In this document: piece by piece, positions 1,937 through 58,612 of the stretch
How the letters are laid out: every line of letters begins with the position of its first letter
Position numbering within the stretch: the first letter of the stretch is position 1
NCBI RefSeq assembly: GCF_040215725.1
Contig: NZ_CP157967.1
Location: forward strand, 1,922,001-1,986,000
DNA length: 64,000 bases
Source of the DNA: Rhizobium sp. ZPR4
GTDB lineage: Bacteria > Pseudomonadota > Alphaproteobacteria > Rhizobiales > Rhizobiaceae
Direction: 5' to 3'
Notes under the pieces: generated by a model
The model's input: the letters and a program-made list of their open reading frames with translations, nothing else
What the model was told of the DNA's origin: nothing
Database searches by the model: none
Translations under genes and position numbers: made by a program

Positions 1937-3268
1937 ATGACTGACGCGATATCTCCCTTATCGCCGACTCCCTCGTCATCGAACAATGCTGTTGCGAATT
2001 CCCCGGCACGTGTTCTGATCGCGAGCCTCATCGGCACAACGATCGAATTTTTCGATTTCTATGTTTATGCAACGGCGGCGGTTATCGTCTTCCCGAAGCT
2101 GTTCTTCCCGGCAAGCGATCCGACATCTGCAACCTTGCAGTCCTTCGCGACCTTCTCCATCGCCTTCTTCGCGCGCCCGATCGGCGCGATGATCTTCGGC
2201 CATTTCGGGGACCGGATCGGCCGCAAGGCGACGCTGGTTGCTGCGCTGATGACCATGGGCCTCTCGACGGTCGTGATCGGCATGCTGCCGACCTATGAGT
2301 CGATCGGCGTTCTCGCACCGATTCTTTTGGCGCTTTGCCGCCTCGGCCAAGGCCTTGGTCTCGGCGGCGAGTGGGGTGGCGCTGTATTGCTTGCGACGGA
2401 AAACGCACCGGAAGGCAAGCGCAGCTGGTATGCCATGTTCCCGCAGCTCGGCGCACCCATCGGCTTCATCCTTTCGGCAGGTCTCTTCCTGATTCTGCGC
2501 GAAACCATGGCAGATGCGGATTTCCTCAACTATGGCTGGCGCGTTCCCTTCCTGATCAGCATCGTGCTGGTGGCCGTCGGTCTTTATGTCCGCCTGAAGA
2601 TCACCGAAACCCCGGAGTTCCAGCGCGCCATCGAGAAGGAAGAGCGCGTTTCTGTTCCGATCGCGGTCATCTTCCGCTCGCACTTCCGCAGCCTGATCCT
2701 CGGCACCATCATCGCGGTCGCGACCTTCGTGCTGTTCTATCTGATGACGGCATTCACGCTGAGCTGGGGCACTCGCCCTCCAGGCAACGGTGCGCTTCCG
2801 GCCGGTCTCGGCTATTCCCAGGGCCAATTCCTCGTCGTTCAGCTTGTCGGCGTCGTCTTCTTCGGCCTGATGATCCCGATCTCGGGCCTGTTGTCAGATC
2901 GGTATTCGCGCCGTCTGGTCCTCATCCTGACGACGATCGGCATCCTGATCTTCGGTCTGTTCTATTCGTCGCTGCTGACGGCTGGTCTTGCCGGTGCCTT
3001 CGCCTGCTCGATCATCGGTCTGGCCCTGATGGGCTTTACCTATGGCCCGATCGGCGCGGCTCTGGCTGCGCCCTTCCCGACCACCGTGCGCTATACCGGT
3101 GCTTCGATGACCTTCAATCTCGGCGGCATCGTCGGTGCATCCCTGGCGCCCTACATCGCCACGTGGCTCGCAACCAACTACGGCCTCGTCTATGTCGGTT
3201 ACTATCTGGCGGCGGCCGCGGTTCTCTCGCTGATCGGCATTCTGCTTTCAGGCAATGACGAAGTCTGA
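1937..3268 (+). CDS. MFS transporter, metabolite:H+ symporter (MHS) type
   Basis: Inner-membrane proton symporter of 443 aa with about 12 hydrophobic segments. The first helix (TTIEFFDFYVYATAAVIVF, near residue 35) and the loop GHFGDRIGRKATL are characteristic of the MHS subfamily (ProP, ShiA, KgtP relatives). The centre has the family signature GLGLGGEWGGAVLL. Substrates in this family include shikimate, proline/betaine, 2-oxoglutarate and dicarboxylates; the sequence alone does not tell which. It stands alone on the plus strand between murB and aqpZ and is closed by a strong terminator, so it is not part of the division operon. Confidence 0.88.
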   Translation: MTDAISPLSPTPSSSNNAVANSPARVLIASLIGTTIEFFDFYVYATAAVIVFPKLFFPASDPTSATLQSFATFSIAFFARPIGAMIFGHFGDRIGRKATLVAALMTMGLSTVVIGMLPTYESIGVLAPILLALCRLGQGLGLGGEWGGAVLLATENAPEGKRSWYAMFPQLGAPIGFILSAGLFLILRETMADADFLNYGWRVPFLISIVLVAVGLYVRLKITETPEFQRAIEKEERVSVPIAVIFRSHFRSLILGTIIAVATFVLFYLMTAFTLSWGTRPPGNGALPAGLGYSQGQFLVVQLVGVVFFGLMIPISGLLSDRYSRRLVLILTTIGILIFGLFYSSLLTAGLAGAFACSIIGLALMGFTYGPIGAALAAPFPTTVRYTGASMTFNLGGIVGASLAPYIATWLATNYGLVYVGYYLAAAAVLSLIGILLSGNDEV

Positions 3269-17777: not shown

Positions 17778-17932
17778 GATCGGCTTCAGGAGACGTCCCG
17801 AAACGGATTGTTTTCACAAGCGAAAACCCTCGCCCACCGAGGCCGGGAACCCCAGAAACTCAGGGCATTCGGCAGCGTCCAAAATTATTTCGCGGGAGCG
17901 TCGGACGCGCCTTTCGAAGTGACGCGATGATT

Positions 17933-18333
17933 TGCCAGTTGGCCTGTAAGCCGGGTTCTGTATGGCTCCGACCGAGGCCGGAACGTGGCAGCCATTCATC
18001 TGGGACGGCGCTTGCGCGACGCCTCTTGCAACCCACCCGGATGACCGGCCCGGAAACAGGCTGGAGCGCTTGCGCGCTCCGTGTCATCCCTATTCGGTTT
18101 TGCTCCCGGTGGGGTTTTCCGTGCCGTCGCTGTTTCCAGAGACGCGGTGGGCTCTTACCCCACCCTTTCACCCTTACCCGATCCTGAGATCGGGCGGTTT
18201 GCTTTCTGTGGCACTTTCCCTGAGGTTGCCCCCGCCGGACGTTATCCGGCACCGTGTTTCCGTGGAGCCCGGACTTTCCTCACCTCATCGCCTTTCGGCA
18301 TTGATGAAGCGCGGCTGCCCGGCCAACTGGCAC
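17933..18333 (-). ncRNA. rnpB: RNase P RNA, bacterial class A
   Basis: Catalytic RNA that trims the 5' leader of tRNA precursors. On the minus strand the 5' part contains the near-universal GAGGAAAGTCCGGGCTCC (P3/P4 side) and the 3' part ends with GAACCCGGCTTA. An 11-bp P1 helix closes the molecule: 18321-18331 pairs perfectly with 17934-17944. The length of about 400 nt is normal for class A. End positions are set from P1 and may be off by a few bases. The stretch from here to mraZ (17501-17932) holds no gene, only the dcw leader and promoter. Confidence 0.97.
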
Positions 18334-27107: not shown

Positions 27108-28355
27108 ATGACGGAATTCGCCCCGGATGCCGGTCTCCAAAAGAACCGGAAACTCAAGGACGCTCTGCTACAGCACAAGGCACTGTCTAAAGCTGGCCTC
27201 TCCGAGCGCCTGTTCGGGATGTTGTTTTCCGGCCTCGTCTATCCGCAAATTTGGGAAGATCCGGATATCGATATGGAGGCGATGGAGCTGCAGGCGCATC
27301 ATCGCATCGTCACCATCGGTTCGGGCGGCTGCAACATGCTCGCCTATCTCTCGCAAAATCCTGCATCCATCGACGTCGTCGACCTCAATCGCCACCATAT
27401 CGCGCTGAACAAGCTGAAGCTCGCGGCCTTCCGCCTGCTTCCCGGCCACGCGGATCTGGTGCGCTTCTTCGGAACGCCAGACATTACGGCCAATAGCCAG
27501 GCCTACGACCAGTTCATCGCGCCGCGCCTCGACACGGCAACGGCGGCGTACTGGGACGGTCGCGATCTCTACGGCCGCCGCCGCATCACGGTCTTCAACC
27601 GCAATATCTACAAGACCGGCCTTCTCGGCCGGTTTATCGGCGCCGCCCATATATTGGCACGCTTGCACGGCGTTCGCCTCGACAAGATGACGGAAGCCCG
27701 CACCATGCGCGAGCAACGGCAGTTCTTCGAAGAGGAAATCGCTCCGATCTTCGACAAGCGCGCCGTTCGCTGGCTGCTCGGCCGCAAAAGCTCGCTCTTC
27801 GGCCTTGGCATCCCGCCGCAGCAATATGACGAGCTTGCGAGCCTCGCCGGCGACGATTCCATTTCCTCCGTGCTGAAGCACCGTCTGGAAAAGCTCGCCT
27901 GTCATTTCCCGATGCGCGACAATTACTTTGCCTGGCAGGCATTCTCGCGCCGCTACGCGGCTCAGCATCAGGGTCCTCTGCCAACCTATCTGAAGCCTGA
28001 GCACTATGCCGCGATCCGCGCCAATGCCGACCGCGTCGACGTGCATCACGCCAATTTCACCGAGCTTCTCGCTTCCAAGCCGGCAGCCTCGCGCGATCGC
28101 TACATCCTGCTCGATGCGCAGGACTGGATGACCGACGAGCAGCTCAATGGCCTCTGGGCGGAGATCACTCGCACGGCGCGCGAAGGCGCCCGCGTCATCT
28201 TCCGCACGGCCGCGGAAAAGAGCATCATCGAAGGCCGCCTCTCTCCAGCGATCCGCGACCAGTGGGTCTATTTCGAAGAGCGTTCACAGGAACTCAACGC
28301 CCGTGACCGTTCGGCCATCTACGGCGGCTTCCACATCTACGGGAAAAAAGCGTGA
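27108..28355 (+). CDS. btaA: SAM:diacylglycerol 3-amino-3-carboxypropyltransferase
   Basis: First step of diacylglyceryl-N,N,N-trimethylhomoserine (DGTS) synthesis: transfers the aminocarboxypropyl group of SAM onto diacylglycerol. 415 aa, DUF3419 family. The N-terminal part has VYPQIWEDPDIDMEAMEL (near 45-65), then IGSGGCNMLAYLSQNP with the SAM loop near 75 and VVDLNRHHIALNKLKL. The C-terminal part has YILLDAQDWM near 330. DGTS replaces phospholipids when phosphate is scarce. The last bases overlap the GTG start of btaB, so the two form a coupled operon. Confidence 0.93.
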   Translation: MTEFAPDAGLQKNRKLKDALLQHKALSKAGLSERLFGMLFSGLVYPQIWEDPDIDMEAMELQAHHRIVTIGSGGCNMLAYLSQNPASIDVVDLNRHHIALNKLKLAAFRLLPGHADLVRFFGTPDITANSQAYDQFIAPRLDTATAAYWDGRDLYGRRRITVFNRNIYKTGLLGRFIGAAHILARLHGVRLDKMTEARTMREQRQFFEEEIAPIFDKRAVRWLLGRKSSLFGLGIPPQQYDELASLAGDDSISSVLKHRLEKLACHFPMRDNYFAWQAFSRRYAAQHQGPLPTYLKPEHYAAIRANADRVDVHHANFTELLASKPAASRDRYILLDAQDWMTDEQLNGLWAEITRTAREGARVIFRTAAEKSIIEGRLSPAIRDQWVYFEERSQELNARDRSAIYGGFHIYGKKA

Positions 28356-29026
28356 GCCAGGCGGATACGGGCGTAGAAACCAGCGCGAATAACCACGCCA
28401 AGCTGATGGACGGCATGTACCGCTATCAGCGTCACATCTATGACCTGACCCGCAAGTATTACCTGTTCGGCCGCGATCGAACGATCGAGCAGCTGAATGT
28501 ACCCACCGGCGGCTCGCTCTTGGAAGTGGGCTGCGGCACGGGCCGCAATATGCTGCTCGCCTATCGGCGCTTCCCTTCAGCCCGGCTCTATGGCCTCGAC
28601 ATCTCGCAGGAAATGTTGATCTCGGCGCGCGGCAATTTTCGCGGCTTGAAGGAGATGCCGGATTTTCGCGTCGCCGATGCCACGGCCTTTTCGCCGGCCG
28701 ATTTCAGCGTCGACGGCTTCGACCGCGTCATGATCTCCTACGCGCTCTCGATGATCCCGGACTGGAAAAATGCCATCGACGCATCGCTCGACGCAGTCGC
28801 GCCGGGTGGCGAGCTTCACATCGTCGATTTCGGCCAGCAGGAAGGGTTGCCGGGCTGGTTCCGCGCCATGCTCAAGGGCTGGCTGAAGAAATTCCACGTC
28901 ACTCCCCGTGCCGATCTTCTGACGGTGCTGGAAGAGAAGGCTGCAGCGCGAGGGATGTCGGTGAAAACCGAAAAGATCGGCCGCGGTTATGCCTGGCGAG
29001 CCGTGGCGACCCGGCACGCCGCCTGA
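28352..29026 (+). CDS. btaB: Diacylglycerylhomoserine N-methyltransferase
   Basis: Completes DGTS by three successive SAM-dependent N-methylations of the homoserine headgroup. 224 aa class I methyltransferase: motif I LLEVGCGTGRNMLL near 49, YGLDISQEML near 75, VMISYALSMIPDW near 125, and GGELHIVDFGQQ near 150. It starts with GTG overlapping the btaA stop (GTGA). Function is assigned from the btaA partnership as much as from sequence. Confidence 0.92.
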   Translation: MSQADTGVETSANNHAKLMDGMYRYQRHIYDLTRKYYLFGRDRTIEQLNVPTGGSLLEVGCGTGRNMLLAYRRFPSARLYGLDISQEMLISARGNFRGLKEMPDFRVADATAFSPADFSVDGFDRVMISYALSMIPDWKNAIDASLDAVAPGGELHIVDFGQQEGLPGWFRAMLKGWLKKFHVTPRADLLTVLEEKAAARGMSVKTEKIGRGYAWRAVATRHAA

Positions 29027-31511: not shown

Positions 31512-32438
31512 ATGAATGGCGAACATCGAATGAGCGCTTCAACCTGGGGCCTGCTGCTGTTGCTGGGGCTGATCTGGGGTGGCTCCTTCTTTTTCGCGCG
31601 CATCGCAGTTCACCATGTGCCACCTTTCACGCTCGTCCTGCTGCGTCTGTCCTTGGCGGCGGTGGCGCTGCACATCTACCTTGCCGGTCGCCTTGGCATC
31701 TATCAGTCGCTGCGGCAGCATTGGCGGCAATTTCTGCTGCTGGGCTTGATCAACAATGCGATTCCGCATGCGCTGATCTTCTGCGGCCAGACGCAGATGG
31801 GCGCCGGGCTTGCATCGATCCTGAACGCGACGACGCCGATGTGGACCGTATTGATCGGCAATCAGCTTACCACCGACGAACGTCTGACATCGGCCAAGCT
31901 GATCGGCTGTCTCACCGGCCTGCTCGGAACGGCGGTGTTGCTCGGGCCGAGCATCACCAGCAGCGGCTCGGTTCCCTTTTGGGCGCTGTCATTGCCGATC
32001 CTCGCCGCGATCTCCTATGGCTTTGCCGCGATCTATGCCAAGCGCTTCAAGGGCATCGCGCCGCCGGTCGTGGCGGCGGGCCAGCTGACCGGCTCCTCGC
32101 TCATCATGCTGCCGCTTGCGCTGCTGATCGACCAGCCTTGGACGCTTGCCGTCCCGCCGGTGACGGCGATTGCCGCCATTCTCGGCTTGGCGCTCTTGTC
32201 GACCGCGTTTGCTTACATCCTCTATTTTCGCATCATCGAGCTTGCCGGCGCCACCAACACCTCCCTCGTCACACTGCTGGTGCCGCCAAGCGCGCTATTA
32301 CTTGGCTTCCTCTTTCTCGGCGAGCGGATAGGGCCTGCCGAAATCGCCGGCATGCTGCTCATCGCCGCAGGTCTGCTCGTTCTCGATGGGCGACTTTTCA
32401 TGTGGATGAAACGCAGCGTCAGAACGCGGGAAATATGA
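31512..32438 (+). CDS. DMT-superfamily transporter (EamA type)
   Basis: 308-aa inner-membrane protein with ten helices in two EamA repeats: the first begins LLLLGLIWGGSFFFARIAV and the second LSLPILAAISYGFAAIYAKRF. The final motif GATNTSLVTLLVPPSALLLGFLFLGE is typical. Such proteins export amino acids or metabolites; the substrate is unknown. ATG at 31512 is preceded by GGAGAG; the alternative at 31488 adds eight basic residues. Confidence 0.85.
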   Translation: MNGEHRMSASTWGLLLLLGLIWGGSFFFARIAVHHVPPFTLVLLRLSLAAVALHIYLAGRLGIYQSLRQHWRQFLLLGLINNAIPHALIFCGQTQMGAGLASILNATTPMWTVLIGNQLTTDERLTSAKLIGCLTGLLGTAVLLGPSITSSGSVPFWALSLPILAAISYGFAAIYAKRFKGIAPPVVAAGQLTGSSLIMLPLALLIDQPWTLAVPPVTAIAAILGLALLSTAFAYILYFRIIELAGATNTSLVTLLVPPSALLLGFLFLGERIGPAEIAGMLLIAAGLLVLDGRLFMWMKRSVRTREI

Positions 32439-32601
32439 TCTCACGCTCCACTCAGATGGCCCGCAGTCACAACATATTAATATTTATTCACAGCCCGTCA
32501 TTGAGCTCACAATCGCCTTTTATAAAGCAAATTCAAATCATTGCCACAAAGCCATGAATCACGTCGCGAGCTCGATACCGCGCCGCAGCATCGAATGTTC
32601 T

Positions 32602-32630
32602 TTGCAAGCAACACATTTTCGACATAAAAT
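32602..32630 (+). promoter_or_regulatory. Sigma-70 promoter for the 25-aa gene
   Basis: TTGCAA at 32602-32607, a 17-bp spacer and TAAAAT at 32625-32630. Transcription would start near 32637, about 19 nt before the ATG at 32656, giving an mRNA of about 195 nt ending at the terminator at 32831. The rest of 32439-32600 shows nothing recognisable. Confidence 0.6.
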
Positions 32631-32655
32631 TTAACGGCTGACTGAGGAGGAAGAC

Positions 32656-32733
32656 ATGGGATTAACGCGATCCATCAACGTCCTAGTGGTCGGTGCGGCC
32701 TTCGCTTTCGTCGTGACGATGCTTTTCATCTAA
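32656..32733 (+). CDS. 25-aa single-span membrane peptide
   Basis: Too short for ordinary gene calling. The peptide begins MGLTRSIN and then has one continuous hydrophobic segment to its C-terminal LFI, enough for one membrane helix with the basic N-terminus inside. GAGGAGG at 32644-32650 is among the best ribosome sites in the window, a good promoter lies upstream and a strong terminator downstream. That set is hard to explain unless it is expressed. I do not recognise the family and assign no function. Confidence 0.7.
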   Translation: MGLTRSINVLVVGAAFAFVVTMLFI

Positions 32734-32797
32734 CGGCTTCGGCGAAATTCGCAGACGACCAAACTCCGAAAAGCTAACAAAACCCCTGTTTCATTAG

Positions 32798-32831
32798 AAA
32801 AGCGCATGTCCCAGCAGGACATGCGCTTTTT
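32798..32831. terminator. Bidirectional terminator
   Basis: A 10-bp perfect stem (GCGCATGTCC / GGACATGCGC) with a 5-base loop, flanked by A4 and T5. It ends the small-peptide transcript and also lies just past the metF stop on the other strand. Confidence 0.93.
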
Positions 32832-32853
32832 ATGAGTAAATTGGGCGAAAGTT

Positions 32854-33756
32854 TTAGGCAGCGGCGCCGGCGCGCGCATCCACCTTGCGCTCAAGACCCA
32901 GCCGTTCGAGGACGGCCGAGACGAGCGCCGAACGGTTCATCGTGTAGAGATGAAACTCATGGATGCCACGGCGCATCAGATCCTGGATCTGCTCGGCAGC
33001 AACTTCAGCGGCGACCCTGGCACGCTCTTCGGTATTCTCCTCCAGACCGTCGAAACGCTCGTCGAGCCAGGACGGAATAGTCGTGCCACAAGCACCGGCA
33101 AAGCGTTTCAGCTGGGTCAGGTTCTGGATCGGCATGATGCCCGGCACGACCGGAATCTTGATGCCAGCCGCGCGAACGCGATCATGATAGCGCTCAAACG
33201 CATCATTATCGAAGAAGAACTGGGTCAGCGCCCGATCGGCACCGTTTTCCGCTTTACGCTTCAGCATATCGATATCGGCTGCCGTATCACGGCTTTCCGG
33301 ATGCTTTTCCGGATAGGCCGACACGGAGATATCGAAATCGCCGCGCTCACGCAAAGCTCCCACCAGTTCAGCAGCATTGGCATAGCCGCCCGGATGCGGC
33401 TGATAGGCCGAGCCAACGCCGCCCGGCGGATCGCCGCGCAGGGCGACGAAACGGCGAACGCCCGCAGCCAGGAACTCGTCGATCACCCGATGGGTGTCCT
33501 CACGCGTTGCCCCGACGCAGGTCAGATGCGATGCGGTCGTGAACGGCGTCTCATGGATCATCTTGCGCACGGCGGAAAGCGTTGGCGCCTTGGTCGAGCC
33601 GCCTGCTCCATACGTGACTGAAACGAACTCAGCGTCCCAATCGCTGAGCTCCTCAACGGTGTTCCACAGCTGCTGCTCGGCCTCTTCCGACTTCGGCGGA
33701 AAGAACTCGAAGGAGATGCGGATACCGTCGTTACGGCTTTCTGATCTCGAAGACAT
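32854..33756 (-). CDS. metF: 5,10-methylenetetrahydrofolate reductase
   Basis: FAD enzyme that makes 5-methyl-THF for methionine synthesis. 300 aa TIM barrel: ISFEFFPPKSEEAEQQLW with the catalytic Glu near 13, VTYGAGGST near 48, HLTCVGATRED near 78, ALRGDPPGG near 105, and VPGIMPIQNLTQLKRFA near 203. The start at 33756 follows the regulator stop by one base (TGA c ATG) with GGGAG before it. It is thus translated from the same message as its likely repressor. Confidence 0.96.
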   Translation of the reverse strand: MSSRSESRNDGIRISFEFFPPKSEEAEQQLWNTVEELSDWDAEFVSVTYGAGGSTKAPTLSAVRKMIHETPFTTASHLTCVGATREDTHRVIDEFLAAGVRRFVALRGDPPGGVGSAYQPHPGGYANAAELVGALRERGDFDISVSAYPEKHPESRDTAADIDMLKRKAENGADRALTQFFFDNDAFERYHDRVRAAGIKIPVVPGIMPIQNLTQLKRFAGACGTTIPSWLDERFDGLEENTEERARVAAEVAAEQIQDLMRRGIHEFHLYTMNRSALVSAVLERLGLERKVDARAGAAA

Positions 33757-33757
33757 G

Positions 33758-34783
33758 TCAAACTCTCCCGGCAAGAATGGGGGATGACTGGTGGCCCTGG
33801 TCGGACGCAATCAGCAATCGCGGGTCGCGCGCCAGCCAGATGGTGACGGTCAGCGCCTGACCGCCTTCCCTCCCCGAATGAAGGTCCTGCACGCGCTCCA
33901 CATCCAGCCCCGCCAGCTTCAACCAATCCGACATGGTCTGATGCGAGAAGCCGAGACGCAGATGCGCATGCTCGTCACGCAGATATTCAAGCCCGTGCGG
34001 TGCGAGATCGATGATGACGAGCCGACCGCCGGGCCGCAGCATTCGCGCAGCCTCGTTGATGGCGATCTCCGGCTGATCGAGGAAATGCAGCACCTGATGG
34101 ATGGTGATGAGGTCGAAATCCTGCTGTTCGAGCGGCAGGTTGAAAATATCGCCATGGCGCACCGAAGCGCTTGTGATGTTGGCCCGGTCGAGATTGGCGC
34201 GCGCAACCGCCAGCATGTCACGGCTGGCATCGATGCCGATGGCGCGGCGGTAATGGCCGGTCAGAAGCTGCAGCATCCGGCCCGTGCCCGTGCCGAGATC
34301 GAGAAAGGAGTCGATCGGCTGCGGACCGATCAGATCGATCAACGCCTTGTCGACATCCTCATCGGCGACATGGAGGCGTCGCAGCTCGTCCCATTCGGCG
34401 GCATTGCGGCTGAAATAGGCCTGCGCACGTTCGGCACGAACACGCTTCACCGAGGTAAGCCGCTCGCCATCGCGCAGCAGCACTGTATCTTTCTCGGCGG
34501 TGTGGCGCAGCAGAGCGCGCGCCAGCGTGACGGCCTTGCCCTCTTGCTTCAAACGGAAATAAGCCCAGGCACCCTCCTGATAACGATCGATCAGGCCGGC
34601 TTCGCCGAGCAGTTTCAAATGTCGGGAAATACGCGGCTGCGACTGGCCGAGAATTTCAGTAAGATCGGTGACAGTGAGATCGCCGGCCGCGAGGAGTGCC
34701 AGGAGACGCAGCCGCGTCGGCTCGCCGACCGCCTTCAGCACATCCACCACATCATCCAAGCCGAGTTTAACCAGATCCGTCAT
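33758..34783 (-). CDS. sahR: ArsR-family regulator with methyltransferase-fold domain (SahR-like)
   Basis: 341 aa. Residues about 1-95 are an ArsR winged helix (DVLKAVGEPTRLRLLALL; QPRISRHLKLLGEAGLI as recognition helix) without the metal-site cysteines of true metalloregulators. Residues about 140-310 form a SAM-methyltransferase fold (FLDLGTGTGRMLQLL; GGRLVIIDLAPHG). This two-domain design matches SahR, a described repressor of the S-adenosylmethionine cycle that lets go of DNA when S-adenosylhomocysteine rises. Coupling to metF supports that. A perfect palindrome over its promoter (34802-34817) would be the operator. The name is an inference from family and context. Confidence 0.8.
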   Translation of the reverse strand: MTDLVKLGLDDVVDVLKAVGEPTRLRLLALLAAGDLTVTDLTEILGQSQPRISRHLKLLGEAGLIDRYQEGAWAYFRLKQEGKAVTLARALLRHTAEKDTVLLRDGERLTSVKRVRAERAQAYFSRNAAEWDELRRLHVADEDVDKALIDLIGPQPIDSFLDLGTGTGRMLQLLTGHYRRAIGIDASRDMLAVARANLDRANITSASVRHGDIFNLPLEQQDFDLITIHQVLHFLDQPEIAINEAARMLRPGGRLVIIDLAPHGLEYLRDEHAHLRLGFSHQTMSDWLKLAGLDVERVQDLHSGREGGQALTVTIWLARDPRLLIASDQGHQSSPILAGRV

Positions 34784-34801
34784 TCCACACCCAATCAAGA
34801 T

Positions 34802-36749: not shown

Positions 36750-37496
36750 CTAGAAACCGGCCGCGTCCACCACGCCGCGGTCGCAGCCGAACGAGGTGCT
36801 GCCCGCACTTTGGATCAACTTGGCGAGCCGCGGCTCATTACCCTGCTGTGGATCGATCGCATCTTCCGAGAGACCGATGGTCAGCTCCGAAATCATCCTG
36901 ACGTTGCCGACCCGGCGGCAGCTCATCTTGATGCGCGCATTGGCGCCTTCGCCGAAGCTCTGGTCGAAGGCTGCCTTGATGCTTTCGGCATCCAGCTCCT
37001 TGCCGATATTCTGCGCGAAGAGCTCGCGCACGGCCGATGCATTGAGCTCGGTGATCAGGCCGGCGGCGATGGCGAAATACTGGTCGGCGCTGAGCTTCGT
37101 GCAGGTGCCGTGCTTGATCCATTCGTGCCGCTCGAGGCCGGATTGGGTGCCCGGCATCACCTTGTCGAGCTTCGTCTTCACGTCCTGCGACAGCTGCACC
37201 GCCGGCAGATCCTTCCAGTCACTGCTGCGATCCGCCTGCTTCAGATCCTCGGAAACATCGCAATATTCCTGCCGCATCGGCCAGAGGCCATGCAGCGAGA
37301 AGTTCGTGGCATCATGACTATCCGACGACTGGTTCCGGCATTCCGCCTTCTTCTGGTTCGTCGCACAAAATGCCGGCTCCCAGCTTGCCGCCAGGATAAA
37401 GCGTGTCCGCCCGCGGCTATGTTCCTGCGCCATGGCGCCCGTCACGGTGCCGATCGAAAGGATTGCAACCGCAAATACCCGAAGCCAATGCTTCAT
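36750..37496 (-). CDS. Ribonuclease T2 family protein
   Basis: Exported acid-type endoribonuclease, 248 aa, with a signal peptide ending AMAQ. Both catalytic blocks are intact: CAS I FSLHGLWP (near 66) and CAS II HEWIKHGTC (near 124), containing the histidines and the glutamate needed for 2',3'-cyclic phosphate cleavage. Several cysteines suit periplasmic disulfides. Members in bacteria, such as RNase I of E. coli, scavenge RNA from the periplasm. Single gene, divergent from the hydrolase at 37663. Confidence 0.93.
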   Translation of the reverse strand: MKHWLRVFAVAILSIGTVTGAMAQEHSRGRTRFILAASWEPAFCATNQKKAECRNQSSDSHDATNFSLHGLWPMRQEYCDVSEDLKQADRSSDWKDLPAVQLSQDVKTKLDKVMPGTQSGLERHEWIKHGTCTKLSADQYFAIAAGLITELNASAVRELFAQNIGKELDAESIKAAFDQSFGEGANARIKMSCRRVGNVRMISELTIGLSEDAIDPQQGNEPRLAKLIQSAGSTSFGCDRGVVDAAGF

Positions 37497-58465: not shown

Positions 58466-58612
58466 AGGCGTTCTCAGGGCGGGGTGCAATTCCCCACCGG
58501 CGGTATGGGGATTTTCCCCGAGCCCGCGAGCGCCTTCCGAGTTTTCGGAAGGGTCAGCAGATCCGGTGAGAGGCCGGAGCCGACGGTATAGTCCGGATGG
58601 AAGAGAGCAAGC
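58466..58612 (+). promoter_or_regulatory. FMN riboswitch (RFN element)
   Basis: The conserved parts of the FMN aptamer are all present: TCTCAGGGCGGGGTGCAATT, CCCCACCGGCGGTA, a variable arm (CGCCTTCCGAGTTTTCGGAAGG), AGATCCGGTGAGAGGCCGG, and GCCGACGGTATAGTCCGGATG with a closing GAAGAGAG. FMN binding should reduce expression of the downstream ribH. Downstream (58620-58700) small hairpins lie between aptamer and start codon and could be the translation-control platform. Confidence 0.97.

Follow-up and report, generated by a model that had tools for sequence, protein, structure and literature searches.

In Rhizobium sp. ZPR4, a small transcript that Rfam lists as an sRNA looks like a small mRNA, and we consider it likely that the RNA, of 194 nt, is monocistronic, with an inner-membrane peptide as its main product that packs against a larger membrane protein and adjusts its assembly, stability or activity. 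The transcript is already catalogued, as sRNA family RF02503; the new points are that RF02503 has the look of a small mRNA and that the peptide's own family spans the order. The features of the locus are listed below, with positions counted along the window, that is, the whole 64,000-nt stretch of contig NZ_CP157967.1 that was analysed.

32602..32630, + strand: sigma-70-type promoter (CTTTGCAA ... TAAAAT), consensus scan, 9/12
32636..32829, + strand: small transcript, Rfam RF02503 Atu_C9, about 194 nt, cmscan
32644..32650, + strand: Shine-Dalgarno GAGGAGG, 5 nt ahead of the ATG
32656..32733 including the stop, + strand: 25-codon frame for a predicted single-span membrane peptide, gap-free and synonymous-biased
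32758..32769, + strand: 3'-UTR motif ACCAAACTCCGA, kept within Rhizobium only
32802..32831, + strand: intrinsic terminator, possibly bidirectional (A run left, T run right)
32854..33759, - strand: metF, convergent neighbour (TIGR00676, 342.6 bits against a cut-off of 293.7)

A preliminary description of this DNA had read a promoter, a near-perfect Shine-Dalgarno sequence, a short hydrophobic frame and a terminator within about 230 bp, and all four are present. The promoter elements TTGCAA (32602-32607) and TAAAAT (32625-32630), read in the sequence with a 17-nt spacer, were recovered by a consensus scan as two overlapping readings of 9/12 each, where shuffles expect 0.4. The GAGGAGG at 32644-32650 lies 5 nt before the ATG at 32656, and the frame runs to a TAA at 32731-32733. 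Its product, MGLTRSINVLVVGAAFAFVVTMLFI, has 25 residues and one hydrophobic span, with a best 17-residue Kyte-Doolittle mean of 2.81, which places it among small membrane proteins by size and span (at most 50 residues, one hydrophobic span). The terminator consists of the inverted repeat GCGCATGTCC/GGACATGCGC (32802-32826) followed by TTTTT (32827-32831). RNA folding recovered this hairpin; the terminator scan did not list it, and the two matches the scan returned (0.7 expected) fall inside the frame.

These elements were compared in a set of 81 sequences made up of the window and the best 80 of 293 confirmed relatives, titled Rhizobium, Neorhizobium, Ferirhizobium or unnamed Rhizobiales. Promoter, Shine-Dalgarno sequence, frame and terminator are kept across the set and the DNA between and around them much less so, and for this reason we judge the arrangement to be beyond chance. 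The mean majority-base frequency was 0.84 over the promoter (32601-32631) versus 0.58 immediately upstream (32536-32600). At the same position, ten Agrobacterium-like loci mostly carry CTTTCCAA or CTTTTCAA followed by TAATAT or similar. GGAG- or AGGAGG-like sites precede most of the homologues listed and are weaker in a few. A terminator-like hairpin was found in 78/81 (median -16.8 kcal/mol), and 75 of the 81 examined have an A run 5' of the hairpin, so that the terminator could also stop transcription of metF.

Folding of the start region was compared with that of synonymous shuffles in 60 sequences. The Shine-Dalgarno sequence was unpaired with a probability of 0.35 versus 0.25 in the shuffles (median rank 0.8), and its pairing with about codons 8-11 was raised, at 0.31 versus 0.16. 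Sequestration of the Shine-Dalgarno sequence, as in a thermosensor or riboswitch, was dropped as an explanation since the natural sequences are more open than their synonymous shuffles; an open start region fits efficient translation.

The Rfam model extends over nearly the same limits as those predicted from the promoter and the terminator. The match at 32636-32829 scored 129.2 bits against a gathering score of 40, so the transcript belongs to RF02503 (title 'Rhizobiales sRNA Atu_C9', type 'Gene; sRNA'), and it covers the full model, 1-192. The model starts 20 nt before the ATG and finishes in the terminator, and the limits of the match are in keeping with both predicted transcript ends. On our reading, the consensus line of RF02503 itself holds the 25-codon frame. 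Six Agrobacterium-like loci that were tested scored 97-106 bits. Locus and transcript limits are thus those of RF02503; what differs is that Rfam files the family as an sRNA gene, whereas the substitutions described below show a protein-coding one. The peptide family also ranges further than the RNA model: genomes of the order above the RF02503 cut-off numbered 9/397, versus 117/397 for a profile of the peptide at E<=0.001.

The pattern of substitution carries most of the argument. The 25-codon frame is intact in 80/80 relatives and in the window, and gaps occur in 0/78 frame columns versus 37/61 columns of the 3' UTR. Changes in codons 2-25, counted on the tree, fell at codon positions 1, 2 and 3 in the proportion 42/12/143, and 149 of them were synonymous versus 48 non-synonymous. 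When these changes were scattered over random sites in 1000 permutation trials, the mean was 67.6 synonymous changes and the maximum 90; read in the other two same-strand frames, they gave 32 and 17. Avoidance of stop codons, taken alone, was not significant: one inferred change, at a reconstructed node, touches the stop, and 140/1000 permutations had as few.

Because the 81 sequences had been picked for likeness of the peptide, a choice biased towards conserved peptides without gaps, loci were also taken by their metF gene, a sample that addresses this bias in part only. A metF match was obtained in 59/61 genomes of the GTDB family, and the 30 best of the 59 were used. The frame was present in 27/30 of these loci by pattern and in 28/30 by profile, the latter count superseding the former, which had missed one locus (L166) with an N-terminus outside the pattern. 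The peptide was not found in 2/30, one of them at a contig end and the other a loss; in the locus without the peptide the upstream gene extends to about 50 bp from metF. In the 27 loci, differences per codon position were 0.31/0.16/0.54. The peptide is under purifying selection. The preliminary description had proposed a real small-protein gene and had named a reading frame that was not conserved, or was broken by frame-breaking changes, in close relatives as evidence to the contrary; that comparison was run, no frame-breaking indels were seen in the relatives, and the proposal is supported. Judged by selection, the locus is a small-protein gene, and it is this same pattern that points to the peptide as the main product of the transcript. 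Gene callers would generally be expected to skip a gene of 25 codons.

The peptides form a family of 25-28 residues with the core AAFxF[VI]xA[IV]xxG, found across the order. Within the same GTDB family, the profile matched in 356/394 genomes at E<=10 and, by a hand count, in about 327 at E<=0.001 (29 of the 356 lie above 0.001); the genomes with no match include ones of 1.0-1.9 Mb and also some of 3-5 Mb. All 21 of 21 genomes had the peptide in a genus that we take to be Agrobacterium from the Rfam name and the scores. For the order as a whole, the match in 117/397 genomes at E<=0.001 is probably a lower bound, since 22/24 rows of the profile came from one family. In a sample of the class, taken for the most part from other orders, the peptide is rare, with matches in 4/385 genomes at E<=0.01 and, with a wider profile, in 5/318 at E<=0.001, both counts including the genome under study. 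Two of the weak class-level matches (L172 and L173) were treated as chance because they are located within much longer open frames. Neither Pfam nor NCBIfam had a model above its cut-off for four members of the family (best Pfam E = 0.28).

In 27 order-wide peptides aligned with MAFFT, which had been found with a profile favouring the family core, F16 and F18 never vary, and A15, A21 and a Gly at column 25 are each kept in at least 90%. With members aligned on AAFxF, N8 occurs in 24/30, a basic residue at position 5 in 26/30 and A14 in 27/30. The peptide of the window has T at position 21 and lacks the Gly of the order-wide core, which we attribute to the shortened, changed end (MLFI) of its clade. 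A test of the span for conservation repeating every 100 degrees gave no significant result (p = 0.41); the idea of a conserved helical face was dropped, and no packing face is claimed.

Two further sequences were noted in these searches. Elsewhere in this genome, a frame of 52 residues (L174) ends in a similar span, VLFSAAFLFVAAIVCGIVV, and is possibly a distant paralogue or a chance match; with E = 0.66 and no Pfam match it was left uncounted. The strongest match beyond the order is a 32-residue member ending in SLNALLVGAAFAFIAAMLFI, in a 1.5-Mb genome (L230/L171), where it adjoins what, read from the sequence, is apparently an ATP synthase a-subunit gene.

The peptide gene stands alone. Upstream on the same strand, the gene for an EamA-type transporter ends at 32438, and metF, on the opposite strand, ends at 32854; because it is convergent, metF is not in the same operon. 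Synteny near metF had been put forward as a check on the gene, and it was confirmed: the peptide is convergent to metF in 28/30 metF-anchored loci, separated from it by 100-367 bp between matches in 27 and by 1.1 kb in one, and in 77/80 of the named loci (the best 80 of 293). The other three named loci comprise a contig end and two, L110 and L122, with no metF within 3 kb. Thirty further loci of the family gave 29/30 convergent, the last lying on a short contig. Upstream neighbours vary, with the EamA gene in 51/80 and a transglycosylase gene in 79/80 of the fetched stretches at the named loci. An operon partner was considered and dropped, since the closest genes on the same strand change from one family of the order to another; these genes were picked as the longest open frames, and some picks are evidently in a wrong frame. 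In L110 and L122, which are of Rhizobium type, the peptide gene is kept at around 3001-3075.

Outside the GTDB family we read 28 loci (L204-L231), 1-5 per family, chosen from the order's matches plus one from beyond the order. In 14/28, metF or metH is no more than about 4 kb away, always downstream and convergent, with spacers reaching about 2.7 kb. A GatA-like amidase gene occurs in 11/32 loci (L204-L235, the query's own locus counted); ten of the 11 hold the peptide, and there the amidase gene is upstream on the same strand at a distance of about 150 bp to 3 kb. It is not adjacent to the peptide gene in the window. The arrangement may be read as an ancient gene order of amidase and peptide with a metF/metH operon facing them, and the peptide may have some functional connection with methionine synthesis; convergent neighbours can also persist for no reason of their own.

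Other features of the window were recorded. A gene at 33758-34798 (- strand) encodes a fusion of an ArsR-type DNA-binding domain and a methyltransferase; it adjoins metF and accompanies it in other families as well. At 27108-29026, by Pfam, a DUF3419 gene precedes one for a methyltransferase, a pair that we take to be the btaA/btaB arrangement for betaine-lipid synthesis. A ribonuclease T2 family protein gene lies at 36750-37496 (- strand), and Rfam gave clear matches to RNase P RNA class A at 17931-18330 (- strand) and to an FMN riboswitch at 58466-58612 (+ strand).

Gene order and conservation bear on three other accounts of the transcript. A leader peptide or attenuator of a neighbouring gene would explain a short frame with a hairpin nearby, but the next gene, metF, is on the opposite strand, the terminator closes the transcript, and the frame is retained though the upstream neighbours vary as described; this account is refuted by gene order and retains practically no probability. 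Size and hydrophobicity are compatible with a type I toxin, a hydrophobic, self-harming peptide restrained by an antisense RNA. Type I toxins are patchy and often multi-copy, however, and the peptide has a single clear copy in its own genome (the second match has E = 0.66) and one match each in 115 of the 117 matching genomes of the order (E<=0.001). A consensus scan, the only means applied, returned no minus-strand promoter-like site over 32440-32900, and deep synteny with strong purifying selection is unlike a toxin of this type, which we regard as very improbable. We give slightly less credence still to the account implied by the Rfam type, 'Gene; sRNA', in which the RNA is non-coding and the frame incidental. 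A non-coding sRNA has no conserved reading frame, whereas this one has a gap-free frame with 149 synonymous and 48 non-synonymous changes, the codon-position pattern of a coding sequence and a peptide conserved over the order; in a more distant genus (L011), the RNA score drops to 34.3 bits, below the cut-off, yet the peptide is still detected. What speaks for a non-coding RNA, besides its type, are the roles in growth reported for Atu_C9 as summarised in PMC5471319, which cites Wilms et al. 2012.

A second role of the RNA, alongside the peptide, was also weighed. The preliminary description had suggested a dual-function small RNA with a 3' UTR able to pair with targets; in its present form the peptide is made, and ACUCC(U) in the 3' UTR also pairs with targets or with the transcript's own Shine-Dalgarno sequence. 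Within the first 62 nt after the stop, ACTCC occurs in 64/78 distinct sequences of the named set and window, where dinucleotide shuffles, a control that ignores relatedness, expect 6.4. CUCC is able to pair with GGAG, the predicted pairing with the transcript's own Shine-Dalgarno sequence has a mean probability of 0.31 and exceeds 0.3 in 26/64, and the transcript resembles an sRNA in its size and its terminator. On the other side, the Neorhizobium, Agrobacterium-like, Sinorhizobium-sized and other distant relatives read keep the peptide but lack the motif, as do a few Rhizobium, and the rest of the 3' UTR ahead of the terminator is poorly conserved. The suggestion has weak support, from a single motif conserved in Rhizobium and missing from the other genera read. 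ACTCC is the main support for a possible second RNA function, in Rhizobium, and we hold the dual-function account only tentatively, as a minority possibility. A broader proposal seems to us rather unlikely. In it, an sRNA entry hides an unrecognised membrane peptide family of the order, the peptide serves a core membrane complex as an accessory component with an ancestral tie to the 3' end of the metF/metH operon, and its mRNA acquired base pairing through ACUCC as a second role in Rhizobium.

The reading that we prefer is that the 194-nt transcript would act as a monocistronic mRNA and that its 25-residue product would insert into the inner membrane by its single span. We infer from the sequence that it is translated in Rhizobium sp. 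ZPR4. The peptide would begin with a short tail in which residue 5 is usually basic; an Asn usually starts the span, and AAFxF comes next, with hydrophobic residues from there to the C-terminus. Its topology is probably N-in/C-out, as suggested by a basic residue close to the N-terminus and a C-terminus free of charged residues. Its helix may pack on some larger integral protein or complex of the membrane and so adjust that partner's assembly, stability or activity. Binding to a larger membrane protein is the most likely mode of action because the peptide is free-standing, strongly conserved, single-span and too small for an enzyme. Small proteins of the MgtS, AcrZ and CydX type share its size and its one hydrophobic span, a likeness of general features; they act by binding larger membrane proteins, and some are encoded by a separate small mRNA first listed as an sRNA.

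Among known rhizobial RNAs, rnTrpL/peTrpL of S. meliloti is likewise a small RNA with a functional frame, described as a dual-function sRNA with a 14-residue peptide (PMC10117765). It differs in being leaderless and in serving as the tryptophan attenuator upstream of trpE, whereas the Atu_C9 gene stands alone and has a strong Shine-Dalgarno sequence and a predicted membrane peptide. Two Shewanella candidates were named after Atu_C9 (PMC5471319), RF02503 served as a test for a search program (PMC5913331), and its name or accession also occurs in PMC4993456. None of the papers listed by our literature searches was seen to describe an Atu_C9 peptide as such, and Agrobacterium, rhizobi- and RF02503 are absent from the main text of PMC5521070, which deals with peptides from bacterial sRNAs. 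An intergenic transcript, C1_2087200F, given as 185 nt and about 200 nt on a northern blot (PMC3738593), is of the right size, a likeness by size alone.

A possible counterpart is SEP6 (sORF6) of S. meliloti, of fewer than 30 residues, with one predicted span and conserved in Hyphomicrobiales (PMC10117765). According to the same ribosome-profiling study, SEP6 is translated, was confirmed by western blot and was recovered solely or mostly in the P100 fraction (PMC10117765). Its features match those of our family well, compared by description only, and a 28-residue single-span member is present in genomes of Sinorhizobium size, a genus assignment of our own. SEP6 may belong to the family, although this is a guess; if it is the same gene, one species already has published evidence of both its translation and its location.

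A coding role would change RF02503 from non-coding to coding in a public RNA family database. It would also provide an evolutionary case of a membrane protein family of 25-28 residues without a counterpart in Pfam or NCBIfam. The function of the peptide is directly testable because its gene is free-standing, widely kept and found in tractable rhizobia, and the conserved Asn, the AAFxF core and the C-terminal Gly of most members are clear targets for mutation.
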